Source: Arachnia propionica
GTDB taxonomy: Bacteria > Actinomycetota > Actinomycetes > Propionibacteriales > Propionibacteriaceae
Reading direction: 5' to 3'
DNA length: 64,000 nucleotides
Assembly: GCF_003932785.1 (NCBI RefSeq)
Contig: NZ_RQYT01000012.1
Span: forward strand, 1-64,000
Below the pieces are notes generated by a model. That model was not told the origin of the DNA, searched no databases, and saw only the letters and a list, made by a program, of their open reading frames with translations. Of this stretch, positions 11,433-45,120 are shown one piece after another. Position 1 is the stretch's first letter; each line of letters opens with the position of its first letter. The translations under genes were made by a program, and so were the position numbers.

Positions 11433-12592
11433 GTGATCAGTCGGTGGCTCATGGGGCCTTCGTGGCAGTCGCCCTGAGTGACGGTGAGTCCGCTGCCGCC
11501 CTCCTGTCGCGCTGCGGGTCTGGCCTCATGGTCGAGGAGGGGTCCTCGTCGGCTGGGACGCAGGAGATCCTGAGGTCCGATGCCCTGGGGGTGCCCGGCG
11601 AAGGACATGTGGTGCGGTTGAGGGTTCATCGACGTGGCAGGTCGGCCCTGGTCACGGCGCTGGCAGGTGAAGGCATGGATCTCGATGGGCTGTCCCAGAT
11701 CTTGGACCGGGTGCTCTCGGGTCTTCCTGTGCCAGCACTGACAGGACAGTCGAGGAGCAGCCAGGGCACGGCCATCGAGTACGAGCAGGCCCAGGCAAGC
11801 CTTCCCCGGGATCTCTTCGACGACCTCATGGCCCTGGGTGAAGGAGAGCCGGAGGATGTCCTCGTGCGAGTCGTGGCAGCCATCTCCGGACTGCCCTGCC
11901 AAGGACGTGTCGAATCCGTGTCACCGTCTGTTCCCTGGCCCTGTAGTCCTCGCCTCGCGCTGAGGTCCATCGAGAGCGGCGGGGAGCCCATGATTCGTGT
12001 TCTGCTCAGTGAAGCCCTCGCCAGCAATCAAGCTCGTCGCGAACTGGAACGTCACGGACCTGACATCCAGGGGCAGTTGTGCTCGGTGACGGCAATACGA
12101 GATGCCGCCACGGTCAAGCTGCTGGTGCGCACCATTGCCGGGGTGGGAGCTTCGCGAGTGCTCGCGGTACTGACGGAGGTCGCGTCCAGCTGGGTCGAGG
12201 CGCCGGACACTGCCGTTCCCGCGTCGGATCTGGCTGCGGTCCTGCAAGGTGCGCATGAGACGGAGGACCACACGGATGTCCTGCCCGGCAACGATTGGGA
12301 GCAACTACTGGTCGATCAGGTGTGCCGTCTTCTCGAACGACCAGAGCGTGCCGTCAGCCTGCGCGACAATTTCTTCTCCTTGGGCGGTGACAGCATGACG
12401 GCTCTGCAACTGGTGACTGCCGTGAGGGCCCTGGGGTGGCAGATCGAGGTCAGGGACGTCTTCATCAGCGCCAACCTCAGAGCCCTTGCTTCCAGGATGC
12501 GCCCCGCAACCCCGGAAGTTGCTGCGGCGGCACCCATGAGCGCCTCCGGGCTTGACACGGAGACCCTCAACCGGCTCGTCAGCGAGGAGTAG
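11420..12592 (+). CDS. Orphan NRPS carrier protein with unrecognised N-terminal region
   Basis: A 390-residue first gene of the NRPS unit. Only the C-terminus is clear: a peptidyl carrier domain at about 290-365 with the phosphopantetheine site FSLGGDSMTALQLV. The first ~280 residues show no adenylation motifs and no intact HHxxxDG. A stretch near residues 55-95 (VVRLRVHRRG...GMDLDGLSQILDRVL) vaguely recalls the C3 region of a condensation domain without its histidines, so it may be a degenerate condensation-like domain. ATG 11420 overlaps the iron box and lacks a Shine-Dalgarno site, consistent with leaderless translation. It ends two bases before the MbtF-like gene. Role unknown. Confidence 0.75.
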   Translation: MPSLSDQSVAHGAFVAVALSDGESAAALLSRCGSGLMVEEGSSSAGTQEILRSDALGVPGEGHVVRLRVHRRGRSALVTALAGEGMDLDGLSQILDRVLSGLPVPALTGQSRSSQGTAIEYEQAQASLPRDLFDDLMALGEGEPEDVLVRVVAAISGLPCQGRVESVSPSVPWPCSPRLALRSIESGGEPMIRVLLSEALASNQARRELERHGPDIQGQLCSVTAIRDAATVKLLVRTIAGVGASRVLAVLTEVASSWVEAPDTAVPASDLAAVLQGAHETEDHTDVLPGNDWEQLLVDQVCRLLERPERAVSLRDNFFSLGGDSMTALQLVTAVRALGWQIEVRDVFISANLRALASRMRPATPEVAAAAPMSASGLDTETLNRLVSEE

Positions 12593-39969: not shown

Positions 39970-40851
39970 TCAGCCAAGCAAAGCGGCGATTCGTGTACAG
40001 CGGGGCGACGCGGTCCCGGCGGGCACGGGGCGTCGGTTCCTCTTGAGCGCGGACTGGATGGCGTGCAGGGTCGACGGCCATTCGTCCACCAGCTGGCGGT
40101 GGGTCACCCTGATCGTGTCGTACCCGCGGATCATCGCCTCGCGGTCCCGACGGCGATCGGTCTCGAAGCTGTCCTCGTTGTCGTGCCACTGCTTGCTGTC
40201 CCCCTCCACGATCAGCCTCCCCGCCACGAGCAGGTCCACCCGGCCCACGCCGGGGATCACCACTTGCGGCACCGCTCGGAGGCGATTCCGGGCCAGCCGG
40301 AAACGGAGCACGCTTTCCAGGGGTGACTCGGCTGCAGCGGTCGCCAGCGACAATGCCGTGCCGATCCGTTCCCCGGCTCCTTGGAGGAGGAAGTGGAGTT
40401 CTGCCCGGGTCCTCAGCCCTCGATGAAGGATGCTGTCCAGGGAGACGACGAGCTGTTCCGTCGAGTGATGGCGGGCCTGGCACAACAGGGCGTGGTCAAG
40501 GGACTGCGCCACGTGGCGTGACGGGTCGTCCCTGCGCTCACAGAGGCGTGCCCTCTCGGGGAGCGGACGGGTGCGATGGCTGTATCGCGGGAGCTGCAGG
40601 TGCAGATCCGCGTCGTTCCAGGTGTCGACTCCGTGCAACAGAAGCGCCGATGTGCACGCGAGCGACGCCCCCGCCGTGACGGCCGCGACCACGTCCGCAT
40701 CCGCCTCGGGGAGTGCGTAATGACACCGATCCAGCCGGGTGAGATGCCCGACGGCGACGGCGGCGTCGAACTCGCGACGCGACATGCCGGAACGCAGGGC
40801 CTCCTGTCGCGTGATGATGCCGAAACCAGGGTTGCTCAGGTAGATGCTCAT
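39970..40851 (-). CDS. AbiEi-antitoxin-like protein with DUF559 nuclease-fold domain
   Basis: A 293-residue protein of a type common in Actinobacteria. The N-terminus (GIITRQEALRSGMSRREFDAAVAVGHLTRLDRCHYALP) is the AbiEi-type winged helix, and the C-terminus carries the DUF559/Vsr-like fold (VDLLVAGRLIVEGDSKQWH...DRRRDREAMIRGYDTIRVTHRQLVDEW) with the Asp, Glu-x-Asp and Lys expected of a nuclease core. No AbiEii toxin is adjacent, so a complete toxin-antitoxin pair is not seen. It stands alone on the minus strand between mazG and the repeat/Y RNA region. Confidence 0.8.
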   Translation of the reverse strand: MSIYLSNPGFGIITRQEALRSGMSRREFDAAVAVGHLTRLDRCHYALPEADADVVAAVTAGASLACTSALLLHGVDTWNDADLHLQLPRYSHRTRPLPERARLCERRDDPSRHVAQSLDHALLCQARHHSTEQLVVSLDSILHRGLRTRAELHFLLQGAGERIGTALSLATAAAESPLESVLRFRLARNRLRAVPQVVIPGVGRVDLLVAGRLIVEGDSKQWHDNEDSFETDRRRDREAMIRGYDTIRVTHRQLVDEWPSTLHAIQSALKRNRRPVPAGTASPRCTRIAALLG

Positions 40852-41014: not shown

Positions 41015-41062
41015 GTTGGCGACGGGCGAGGTTGGCGACGGGCGAGGTTGGCGACGGGCGAG
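41015..41062. repeat. Three perfect 16-bp tandem repeats
   Basis: The unit GTTGGCGACGGGCGAG occurs three times head to tail with no mismatch (41015, 41031, 41047). There are no spacers, so it is a short minisatellite, not a CRISPR array. It lies about 150 bases upstream of the Y RNA promoter. Confidence 0.85.
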
Positions 41063-41130
41063 GGCAGGGGGGCGTCGGGGCCAACGGCGTCAGAGCGGGT
41101 GGGTGGGCGTCGGGTGGTGAGAGGGCGGAG

Positions 41131-41200
41131 GCAGGCGAGCCGGGGTCAAGGCAGGCGAGCCGGGGTGAAGGGCGGCGAACCGGGGTGAAGGGCGGCGACG
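41131..41200. repeat. Imperfect 20-bp tandem repeats next to the Y RNA promoter
   Basis: Three copies of a CGGGGT(C/G)AAGG-type 20-base unit begin at 41141, 41161 and 41181, preceded by a partial copy. They end 10 bases before the -35 hexamer at 41211. The 20 bases at 41131-41150 recur exactly at 63575-63594, so the unit is a dispersed element. Function unknown. Confidence 0.7.
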
Positions 41201-41210
41201 CAGCACCCGG

Positions 41211-41239
41211 TTGACATGCCTCTGACAGGTGTGTACTGT
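41211..41239 (+). promoter_or_regulatory. Consensus sigma-A promoter of the Y RNA array
   Basis: TTGACA (41211-41216), exactly 17 bases, TACTGT (41234-41239): a perfect -35, optimal spacing and a good -10. The predicted start is near 41246, three bases before the closing stem of the first RNA module begins. It is the strongest-looking promoter in the window, as expected for an abundant small RNA. No comparable promoter was seen between the modules or before the Ro60 gene. Confidence 0.8.
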
Positions 41240-41245
41240 TCTACA

Positions 41246-41392
41246 CAGCTGGTCCGAACGGGCCGGAGGAGATCGGTTATCACTGATAATGGACGAGTCG
41301 CGGGTTCGAATCCCGCCCCCCTCGGGGGTAGCTCAGCTGGTAGAGCAGTCGGCGAAAGCCAGCCGGTCTTCACACCATGTCCGTTCGGCCCC
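41246..41392 (+). ncRNA. Y RNA-like module 1 with permuted tRNA-like domain
   Basis: The closing stem pairs 41251-41263 (GGTCCGAACGGGC) with 41379-41391 (GTCCGTTCGGCCC), one mismatch and one wobble. The 5' strand GCTGGTCCGAA resembles the conserved start of animal Y RNAs. Inside lie GATCGGTTATC, a tRNA T-arm (GCGGGTTCGAATCCCGC, 41300-41316), an acceptor-like stem CCCC/GGGG capped by CTCG, and a D-arm TAGCTCAGCTGGTAGAGC (41329-41346). T-arm before D-arm means a circularly permuted tRNA, the plan of bacterial YrlA RNAs that bind Ro60. The Ro60-family gene follows at 41910. Confidence 0.8.
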
Positions 41393-41414
41393 ACAACTTC
41401 ATGTTCGTTTCGCT

Positions 41415-41546
41415 GGGTGGGCCGATGAGGGTCGGTTACCTCAGGGACAGGGAGGTTGCGGGTTCGAATCCCGCCACCGTTGGTGTGGCTCAACCAGGCA
41501 GAGCGCCCTGCTCCGGTCCTCGCCACCACGTCCGCCCGGCCCACCA
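41415..41546 (+). ncRNA. Y RNA-like module 2
   Basis: The closing stem has nine perfect pairs: GGTGGGCCG (41416-41424) with CGGCCCACC (41537-41545). The order repeats module 1: GTCGGTTACC, T-arm GCGGGTTCGAATCCCGC (41458-41474), acceptor-like stem CACC/GGTG with loop GTT (41475-41485), then a D-arm GCTC/GAGC enclosing AACCAGGCA. The 3' side CTCCGGTCCTCGCCACCA parallels AGCCGGTCTTCACACCA of module 1. Only 23 bases separate it from module 1, too few for a promoter, so it is probably cotranscribed. Confidence 0.75.
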
Positions 41547-41558
41547 CAATTCCATACC

Positions 41559-41713
41559 TGCTGCCCGGGCCGACGGTGTTCGGTTATCGGTAAATCCCTT
41601 GGAGCAAATCCTCGGGAGATGGGGTTCAAGTCCCCAAACGGATCGCCACCCGATGATCCGTCAGAACGCCCCAGGCGTTCTGACGCCGGATGCCACCCCA
41701 CGCCCGGGCAGCC
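41559..41713 (+). ncRNA. Y RNA-like module 3, divergent (no D-arm)
   Basis: The closing stem is perfect over 11 pairs: GCTGCCCGGGC (41560-41570) with GCCCGGGCAGC (41702-41712). TTCGGTTATC and a T-arm TGGGGTTCAAGTCCCCA (41620-41636) are kept. The acceptor region is replaced by CGGATC/GATCCG (41639-41660). Where the D-arm should be there is an 11-base-pair hairpin, GTCAGAACGCC-CCA-GGCGTTCTGAC (41660-41684). Membership rests on position, stem, GGTTATC box and T-arm; function may differ. Confidence 0.65.
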
Positions 41714-41717
41714 CTCG

Positions 41718-41870
41718 TGCTCGGCCCGGGCGGGCCGAAGAGTGTCGGTTATCCCTCTCACGGAAGAGACGCGGGTTCGAATCCCGCCCCCTTCGGGGTA
41801 GTTCAGCGGTCCAGAACACTCGGGCGCAAGCCCCATCCGGCCCTCACCCCACGCCCGCCCGGCCCCAGCA
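41718..41870 (+). ncRNA. Y RNA-like module 4
   Basis: The closing stem pairs 41719-41735 with 41853-41869 over 17 positions with two mismatches. The order is the GTCGGTTATC box, T-arm GCGGGTTCGAATCCCGC (41771-41787), an acceptor-like stem capped by the stable tetraloop C-TTCG-G (41791-41796), then a D-arm GTTC/GAAC (TAGTTCAGCGGTCCAGAAC). Distinct stems and loops from module 1 with the same plan suggest selection on structure. It ends 40 bases before the Ro60 start codon and no terminator follows. Confidence 0.75.
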
Positions 41871-41909
41871 CCCCATGACTGCCATGGCAACCAGAAAGGA
41901 GGCGACGTC

Positions 41910-43481
41910 ATGGATCCCCTTCGCAGCATCAGCACCCGCACCACGCCGCAGAACGAACCGGCGGACTCGCGTCAGGTCCCCAACAGTGCGGGCGGCCACA
42001 CCTTCCAGCTCGACGATCGAGCACGCCTGCGTCGCTTCCTGACCCTGGGCGTCGACGGCGGCACCTACTACGCCTCCCCGCGGGAACTCGCGCTGGACAA
42101 CGCCCAAGTGCTCGCCCGGATGGCGGCAGCCGACCCGGTCGGCCTCGTCGAGGCCATCGTCGAAGTCTCCGAGGGCGGCATCGCGCCCAAGCAGGGGCCT
42201 GCGCTGTTCGCCCTGGCCTACGCCACCTCCGTCGCCGACGCGGCCCCGCTCGCGCTGGCGGCCCTGCCCCGGGTCGCCCGGACCGGCACCCACCTGTTCG
42301 CCTTCGCCCGCTACGTCGAGCAGTTCCGCGGCTGGGGCCGAGGACTCAGGCGGGCCGTCGGGAACTGGTACCTGGACAAGGGCGCGGACGCCCTGGCCTA
42401 CCAAGCGGTCAAGTACCGTCAGCGCGAGGGCTGGAGCCACCGCGACCTGCTGCGACTGTCCCACCCGGCGACGGTGGTGCCGGAGCTGCGCTCCACGTTC
42501 GAGTGGATCACGCGGGCCGCGGTCGACGACCACACCCCGGCGTTGATCCGCGGCTTCGTCGAGGCCCAGGCGGCCACCGACGTCGCCTCGTGGACCGAGC
42601 TCATCCGCAGGCATCACCTGACCTGGGAGATGCTGCCCGACGCGGCCCTCAAGGAGACCGCCGTCTGGGACGCGCTCCTGGACGTCGGCATCCCGCAGAC
42701 CGCGCTGCTCAGGCAACTGCCGCGCCTCACCCGGCTCGGGATGCTGCCGGGGCTCGGCGGCCGCACGGACGAGGTGTGCGCGCAGCTCACCGACCCGCAG
42801 CGGCTCCGTCGCGCCCGGGTCCACCCCGTCGCGATCCTCGCGGCCGCCCGCACCTACACCGCCGGGCGGTCGTTCCGGGGGACGGCCACGTGGGAGCCCA
42901 CCGCCAAGGTGAGCGACGCGCTCGACGCCGCCTTCTACGCCGCCTTCGGGCAGGTCACCCCGGCGGGGAAGCGGACCCTCATCGGGCTGGACGTCTCCGG
43001 GTCGATGACCTGGGGCGGACTCGCGGGCACGCCGCTCTCCCCGCGGGAGGCGTCGGCGGCGCTCAGCCTCGTGCAGCTCGCCACCGAGCCCGCCGTGCAG
43101 GTCATGGCCTTCCAGGACCTGTTCGTCCCCCTGGACATCTCGCCGAAGCAGCGTCTCGACGACGTGCTGCGTCGGATGGAGGATCTGCCGTTCGGAACCA
43201 CGGACTGCGCGCAGCCGATGCTGTACGCCGAGAAGCGGAACCTGATGGTCGACACCTTCATCGTCCACACCGACAACGAGACCTGGAGCGGGAAGATCCA
43301 CCCGCACCAGGCGCTGCGCCAATACCGCGAGCGGACGGGGATCGATGCGAAGCTCATCGTGGTGGGCATGACCGCCACGGAGTTCACCATCGCCGACCCG
43401 GAGGATCCCGGCATGCTCGACGTGGCGGGCTTCGACCTGAGTGTTCCGAACCTCATCTCGGAGTTCTCGCGTGGGCTCTGA
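41910..43481 (+). CDS. Ro60-family TROVE-domain RNA-binding protein (Rsr-like)
   Basis: A 523-residue ortholog of animal Ro60 and bacterial Rsr. The N-terminal two thirds are the HEAT-repeat TROVE ring (GGHTFQLDDRARLRRFLTLG, GGTYYASPRELALDN, FAFARYVEQFRGWGRGLRRAVGNWY, LAYQAVKYRQREGWSHRDLLRLSHP). The C-terminus is a von Willebrand A domain with an intact MIDAS motif DVSGSM, Thr in FGTTDC and Asp in HTDNET. Such proteins hold Y RNAs on the outside of the ring and feed misfolded RNA ends through it, often with PNPase. A strong site (AAAGGAGG) precedes ATG 41910. Four Y RNA-like modules lie directly upstream. Confidence 0.95.
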   Translation: MDPLRSISTRTTPQNEPADSRQVPNSAGGHTFQLDDRARLRRFLTLGVDGGTYYASPRELALDNAQVLARMAAADPVGLVEAIVEVSEGGIAPKQGPALFALAYATSVADAAPLALAALPRVARTGTHLFAFARYVEQFRGWGRGLRRAVGNWYLDKGADALAYQAVKYRQREGWSHRDLLRLSHPATVVPELRSTFEWITRAAVDDHTPALIRGFVEAQAATDVASWTELIRRHHLTWEMLPDAALKETAVWDALLDVGIPQTALLRQLPRLTRLGMLPGLGGRTDEVCAQLTDPQRLRRARVHPVAILAAARTYTAGRSFRGTATWEPTAKVSDALDAAFYAAFGQVTPAGKRTLIGLDVSGSMTWGGLAGTPLSPREASAALSLVQLATEPAVQVMAFQDLFVPLDISPKQRLDDVLRRMEDLPFGTTDCAQPMLYAEKRNLMVDTFIVHTDNETWSGKIHPHQALRQYRERTGIDAKLIVVGMTATEFTIADPEDPGMLDVAGFDLSVPNLISEFSRGL

Positions 43482-43770
43482 CGATCCCCTCAGTGGCGTC
43501 GTCCCGGCACCAACCGGTGCCAGGGGCGGCGCCTCTCGCCGTGTCGGCGGGGTGTCGGACGTGACCGCGGCCCGGGCCAGGGAGATGCATGAACGCGCGG
43601 CCGAGGCGGAGCGCCGGGCGGCGGAGCTGCGGGCACAGCGCGACGACCTGATCCGCAGGCTCCGGGCCGAGGACGTGGAACGCTGGTCCTACGGGGCGAT
43701 CGCCGCGGCCGTCGGGTGCAGCAGGGAACTCGTTGCCCAGGTGGTCAAGCGGAGGAGCCCGGGCCGCTGA
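43471..43770 (+). CDS. Small coiled-coil/helix-turn-helix protein
   Basis: A protein of up to 99 residues. The clear part is the last ~60: a charged Ala/Arg/Glu coiled coil (MHERAAEAERRAAELRAQRDDLIRRLRAED) followed by an HTH (WSYGAIAAAVGCSRELVAQVVKRR). GTG 43471 overlaps the Ro60 gene by 11 bases and would couple translation; GTG 43561 is a shorter alternative. Its coupling to the Ro60 gene suggests a regulator or partner of that system, but a function cannot be named. Confidence 0.65.
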   Translation: MGSDDPLSGVVPAPTGARGGASRRVGGVSDVTAARAREMHERAAEAERRAAELRAQRDDLIRRLRAEDVERWSYGAIAAAVGCSRELVAQVVKRRSPGR

Positions 43771-43794
43771 TGGGCGAGGTGCGCGCGTTGGTAG

Positions 43795-45120
<1,326 letters not shown>

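Follow-up and report, generated by a model that had tools for sequence, protein, structure and literature searches.

A four-unit Y RNA array, Ro60 and a small HTH gene behind an operator-like palindrome in a Propionibacteriaceae genome

Results

Genes and features of the Ro60 locus

The window analysed here, a stretch of 64,000 nucleotides, holds a Ro60 operon and comes from a 3.49-Mb Propionibacteriaceae genome. The nearest named relative in our search was Arachnia propionica OH887_COT-365, whose Ro60 is 94% identical, and Tessaracoccus caeni is a member of the same genus group. A putative promoter with an operator-like palindrome is followed by four Y RNA units (41252–41864), the Ro60 gene (41910–43481) and a small HTH gene, in this order. 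A preliminary description of this DNA had placed four tandem Y RNA-like units upstream of a Ro60 gene, and they are indeed present there, with CGGTTAYC boxes starting at positions 41274, 41433, 41581, and 41746. Unit 4 ends approximately 45 nt before the Ro60 start codon, and a ribosome-binding site (AGAAAGGAGG) lies at 41893–41902 (forward strand). No terminator-like site was found in 41100–43900, including the interval between unit 4 and the Ro60 gene.

The Ro60/Rsr protein (41910–43481, forward strand) has 523 amino acids with TROVE and vWA domains (Pfam TROVE, 1e-46; vWA_Ro60, 4e-66), and the TROVE ring and vWA domain extend over its full length. Its best solved relatives are Deinococcus radiodurans Rsr (2nvo, E 1e-120) and human RO60 (9nen, E 6e-110). 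The NCBIfam Rsr equivalog model matches residues 4–522 with 518.8 bits, below its 900-bit cut-off, and the protein is an Rsr homologue outside this narrow equivalog. Among the genomes listed for the genus group, Ro60 is patchy, being present in 9 and absent from 20.

Just upstream of the array promoter, positions 41022–41190 contain short direct repeats of the GCGAGGTTGGCGACGG and GGCAGGCGAGCCGGGGT types. The reverse-strand gene at 39970–40851 encodes a protein whose N-terminal part is AbiEi-like (PADLOC, E 9e-8) and whose C-terminal part weakly resembles a restriction endonuclease. In four other loci (L006, L007, L009, and L010), the array seems to lie directly 3' of mazG. An RNA repair operon was considered and rejected; rtcB is present but on another contig.

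The four Y RNA units

Unit 1 (41252–41390), unit 2 (41411–41541), and unit 4 (41724–41864), all on the forward strand, are of the YrlA type. Each has a two-helix closing stem of the Ro60 type and a domain composed of a T arm, an acceptor-like stem, and a D arm, and unit 4 carries an extra hairpin after the D arm. In unit 3 (41559–41713, forward strand), the Ro60 stem is accompanied by a T-like stem-loop (GGGGTTCAAGTCCCC); the D arm is absent and two other hairpins take its place. The idea that all four units follow one design therefore holds for units 1, 2, and 4 and fails for unit 3, which is a Y RNA by its stem and not a YrlA.

R1, a covariance model trained on 33 actinobacterial tRNA-like units, recognises all four units, with 120.7, 104.7, 46.0, and 97.3 bits for units 1 to 4; since units 1, 2, and 4, the three strongest, were among the training sequences, only the score of unit 3 (46.0 bits, E 5e-8) is independent. 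The next match in the window is a tRNA fragment with 13.6 bits. An R1 search of the genome gave no further Y RNAs outside the array, and its other matches above 40 bits are junctions of tandem tRNA-Lys genes. The search with Rfam models that had also been proposed turned out differently, as no unit of the array reaches a gathering score, which is 69 bits for YrlA (RF02553). Against that cut-off, unit 1 scores 51.3 bits (E 2e-10) and unit 2 scores 38.3 bits (E 1e-6), while unit 4 gives only a partial match of 24.6 bits. Scanning five related loci with the Rfam YrlA model likewise gave no match at the cut-off, and the model thus fits this clade poorly. Units 1, 2, and 4 share the YrlA anatomy but are not members of RF02553 by score. 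A model of the nematode Y-like RNA ceN72-3 matches unit 1 with 35 bits (cut-off 38). tRNA genes or pseudogenes at the array were rejected: ARAGORN gave no match there, and the elements run from T arm through acceptor to D arm and lack an anticodon arm.

Structure and covariation

The unit stem consists of a lower helix that has at most 12 pairs and ends in GGGC/GYCC, an internal loop with CGRNGN opposite a CAC-rich strand, and a 7-pair upper helix that ends in CGG/CCG and leads into the GGTTAYC box. RNAalifold analysis of the 33 aligned tRNA-like units of Actinobacteria recovered the stem, T arm, acceptor-like stem, and D arm, and 23 of the 33 consensus pairs show compensatory changes on both sides. 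In 192 box-anchored units, the mean pairing score was 14.8 of 19 for a unit's own arms, 11.5 for swapped arms, and 10.9 for shuffled arms; scores of at least 13 were reached by 83%, 15%, and 3%, respectively. Pairing is kept across units while the sequence changes, and the stems pair better than expected by chance. The proposed selection on structure is borne out by these doubly changed pairs and by the better pairing of own than of swapped arms.

Folding energies were less uniform as a check. Relative to shuffled sequences, unit 3 folds clearly better (z = -4.1), whereas units 1, 2, and 4 are only weakly better (z = -2.4, -1.1, and -1.9). Because the effect is weak in three of the four units, we did not use the energy z-scores as proof and relied on covariation instead. 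Covariation, the sub-threshold Rfam YrlA matches, and the gene context, in which the units adjoin Ro60 as bacterial Y RNAs do, jointly back the identification of a Y RNA array.

Array size and conservation

Units were counted at 77 distinct Ro60 loci, each with 600 nt or more of sequence upstream. Three loci have no unit, 16 have one, 33 have two, 14 have three, 10 have four, and one has five, against a background of 0.027 units per locus in shuffled sequence; almost all units share the strand of Ro60. Loci with two units form the most frequent class (33 of 77), three or more units occur at 25 of 77 loci, and the 11 loci with four or five belong to Arachnia, Micropruina, Cellulomonas, Nocardia, Mycolicibacterium, and others. 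The array had been regarded as an unusual expansion. Four units do stand at the upper end of this broad distribution, but with 11 of 77 loci having four or five the array is not unique. It is of a known kind.

Of 74 loci, 60 have one or more units with both T and D arms, and units with and without a D arm stand side by side at 53 of the 58 multi-unit loci. On the suggestion that the array could provide one protein with several RNA gates for different clients, what can be read from the sequence is two structural classes of Y RNA, with and without the D arm. All four units occur in unchanged order in the closest relatives, L004 and L005; units 1, 2, and 4 are 83–98% identical to theirs and unit 3 is 64–84% identical. 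The array is thus kept, with the insert of unit 3, the least conserved of the four, evolving fastest while its stem is retained.

The linker between units 1 and 2 (CCACAACTTCATGTTCGTTT, 41391–41410, forward strand) contains an ACAANT motif and may be a processing site. This motif occurs in 18 of 70 linkers, compared with 0.7 expected from shuffles, mostly as ACAACT or ACAATT, and these two forms recur in inter-unit linkers of several genera. On the basis of this recurrence, ACAANT is a candidate cleavage site.

The small HTH protein

The small HTH gene (43471–43770, forward strand) encodes 99 amino acids, and its GTG start overlaps the Ro60 stop. The gene was found in 21 of 197 genomes of the family, all of which have Ro60, and it adjoins Ro60 in each. 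No full-length HTH protein was found in genomes lacking Ro60, and a class sample of 395 genomes gave only partial, weak matches. One further match in a family genome without Ro60 (E 6e-4) lies inside an 846-amino-acid frame and was rejected as spurious. Relatives are encoded directly after Ro60 in Micropruina, Propionicimonas, Tessaracoccus, Nocardioides, Cellulomonas, Actinomyces, Arthrobacter, Actinophytocola, Mycolicibacterium canariasense, and others. Most of what the screen of neighbouring genes returned were antisense frames of the Ro60 gene, which were disregarded.

AlphaFold2 predicts one long helix followed by an HTH, with pLDDT above 90 over residues 31–90. A fold search with this model returned mostly HTH domains of regulators as best matches, none of them significant (E about 1). 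No curated family in Pfam or NCBIfam matched above its cut-off, and PADLOC gave only E 0.012. The label MRP-L20, a mitochondrial ribosomal protein, was rejected as a weak resemblance below the Pfam cut-off, and this resemblance makes RNA binding by the HTH protein conceivable. Phage or plasmid origin was likewise discarded, as there was no match in either collection.

Promoter, operator, and their linkage to the HTH gene

A putative sigma-70-type promoter of the array was recognised by eye at 41211–41239 (forward strand), with TTGACA (41211–41216), a 17-nt spacer, and TACTGT (41234–41239); it was absent from the output of the automatic promoter scan. Positions 41211–41248 are 89–97% identical to L004 and L005, and the DNA just upstream is not conserved. 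An operator-like palindrome (TGTGTACTGTTCTACACA, 41230–41247) covers the -10 region, and overlap between operator and -10 position was seen in nearly all promoters examined. This 18-bp element, TGTGTA-N6-TACACA, has a single match in the genome and occurs exactly once in 15 of 17 Ro60-positive genomes of the family (this one and 14 of 16 others). The palindrome was first noticed in Propionibacteriaceae, and its core, TGTA-N6-TACA, was then found wherever the HTH gene was found in other families.

Counting only loci with enough sequence on both sides, 35 have both the HTH gene and the operator core, one has the HTH gene only, none has the operator only, and 38 have neither. The exception is L028, whose operator has one mismatch; L005 and L048 have the operator without the HTH gene, but their contigs end just after Ro60. 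The residue following EL(I/V)A in the recognition helix covaries with base 5 of the operator half-site: L or Q goes with G or C in 24 of 24 loci, and A or K goes with A or T in 9 of 9. In L008, a close relative of the window, both the residue and the base are changed. The association P values (2e-20 and 3e-8) overstate the strength of these relationships, since the tests ignore shared ancestry. The exclusive occurrence of the HTH gene and operator with Ro60, as read from these genomes, suggests that this RNA quality-control system has a switch of its own.

The position of the operator relative to the units varies. All units are behind the operator in the Arachnia group, and the first unit is in front of it in Cellulomonas (L043, L051), Actinomyces (L057, L058, L086), and L048, L053, L061, and L068. 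In Labedaea (L062), the operator lies between the only unit and Ro60. The four-unit array of Micropruina (L018) has two operators, before unit 1 and before unit 3. Such differences in architecture suggest that a basal supply of Y RNA may be separable from an induced one.

Discussion

Proposed operon and alternative explanations

We consider an autorepressed Ro60–Y RNA operon, with a leader that is processed into four Y RNAs, to be the best reading of the locus, and we hold it with considerable confidence. One promoter would give a single transcript containing the four Y RNAs, the Ro60 message, and the small HTH gene. Cleavage of the leader, probably within the A/U-rich linkers, would then release the four Y RNAs, each about 130–155 nt long. 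Each would bind the outer face of Ro60 through the common two-helix stem, the CCGRNG internal loop, and the GGTTAYC box, while the variable insert would set the role of the particle; three of the inserts mimic tRNA, as in YrlA, and one does not. The HTH protein would bind the palindrome over the -10 box and repress its own operon, and a signal, likely RNA damage or stress, would lift the repression. That it represses rather than activates is our guess from the operator position.

Somewhat less firmly, though we think it probable, the HTH family, which occurs only beside Ro60 in Actinobacteria, would be a dedicated autorepressor acting on one operator per genome and switching on Ro60 together with two classes of Y RNA. 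In some genera, one tRNA-mimic Y RNA would lie outside this control, so that basal and induced Ro60 particles may carry different RNAs.

Three other explanations were weighed. Regulation could lie elsewhere, with the palindrome bound by a regulator encoded at another site and the HTH protein being a component or partner of the Ro60 particle. The lack of a sensor domain in the HTH protein and its sub-threshold similarity to MRP-L20 fit this idea, which we nevertheless regard as unlikely given the nearly one-to-one co-occurrence of the HTH gene and operator, the covariation between recognition-helix residue and operator base, and the predicted long helix plus HTH. The units might also act mainly in cis, with Ro60 recognising the four Y-like stems in the 5' UTR of its own message and so regulating its own translation or stability, and with free Y RNAs being minor. 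The short, terminator-free interval between unit 4 and the Ro60 gene would suit such an arrangement. However, a simple binding leader would not need the complete YrlA domains that are kept here, a unit lies upstream of the regulated promoter in L043, L051, L057, L061, L062, L068, and others, and a member of the genus reportedly yielded co-precipitated Y RNAs (PMC11277228), so that we judge this explanation quite improbable.

A decayed tRNA array or chance tRNA-like DNA is hardly credible. Although the T loops and D arms are tRNA-like and R1 gives 40–44 bits at tandem tRNA-Lys junctions, orthologous units are kept across species and their closing stems covary, and this covariation refutes the explanation.

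Relation to known Ro60 systems

The proposed operon shares features with several known systems. YrlA bacterial Y RNAs (Rfam RF02553) reportedly go back to Chen et al. in 2014. Like three of the units here, they adjoin Ro60 and combine a Ro60 stem with a T arm, an acceptor-like stem, and a D arm arranged in permuted order; the present array differs in scoring below the Rfam cut-off, in having four units in one leader, and in including one unit without a D arm. The D. radiodurans Rsr/Y RNA/PNPase system (RYPER) has in common with the window the Rsr homologue and a Y RNA with the Ro60 stem, whereas the window has four Y RNAs, of which three contain a full tRNA-like domain. Vertebrate and nematode Y/sb RNAs have a 5' arm of the GGNCCGR...GGUUAUC type but no tRNA-like domain; their likeness to the window units is taken here as a resemblance and not as homology. 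Published work summarised in reviews (PMC4726728, PMC8394870) has bacterial Y RNAs binding and gating the Ro60 ring and tethering PNPase. By analogy, we infer that the YrlA-type units may gate Ro60 or tether PNPase here and that unit 3 does something else.

In Salmonella, the rsr-yrlBA-rtcBA operon combines Ro60 and more than one Y RNA under common regulation (PMC7790460). The window likewise has Ro60 and multiple Y RNAs in one operon; its Y RNAs lie upstream of Ro60 rather than downstream, no RtcR or sigma-54 was seen, rtcB is on another contig, and the small HTH gene and operator are present instead. In the literature that we found, regulation of bacterial Ro60 and Y RNAs is known only for this RtcR-controlled operon. 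The HTH gene of the operon and its operator are new relative to the preliminary description, and a Ro60-specific HTH gene with a single operator goes beyond the descriptions found in our literature searches. Such a regulator offers a handle, as the factor that relieves it would reveal what the system responds to, and arrays of different Y RNAs on one Ro60 make the gate and tether ideas testable by removing single units. None of the four RNAs passes the Rfam cut-off, and such arrays are therefore probably missing from standard annotation.

We take Propionibacterium propionicum to be the species now named Arachnia propionica. Lupus sera reportedly precipitated Ro60 particles with Y RNAs from P. 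propionicum, and the RNA content of Arachnia Ro60 particles may bear on their sensing, given this recognition (review, PMC11277228).

The tRNA-Lys matches noted above are the junctions of three tandem tRNA-Lys genes (L137 and L138; contig C114 of G000, 11739–11926; R1 40–44 bits). They match R1 because a T arm, acceptor strands, and the D arm of the next gene stand in the YrlA order, and the YrlA domain may have arisen from such a junction between two identical tRNA genes lying side by side.
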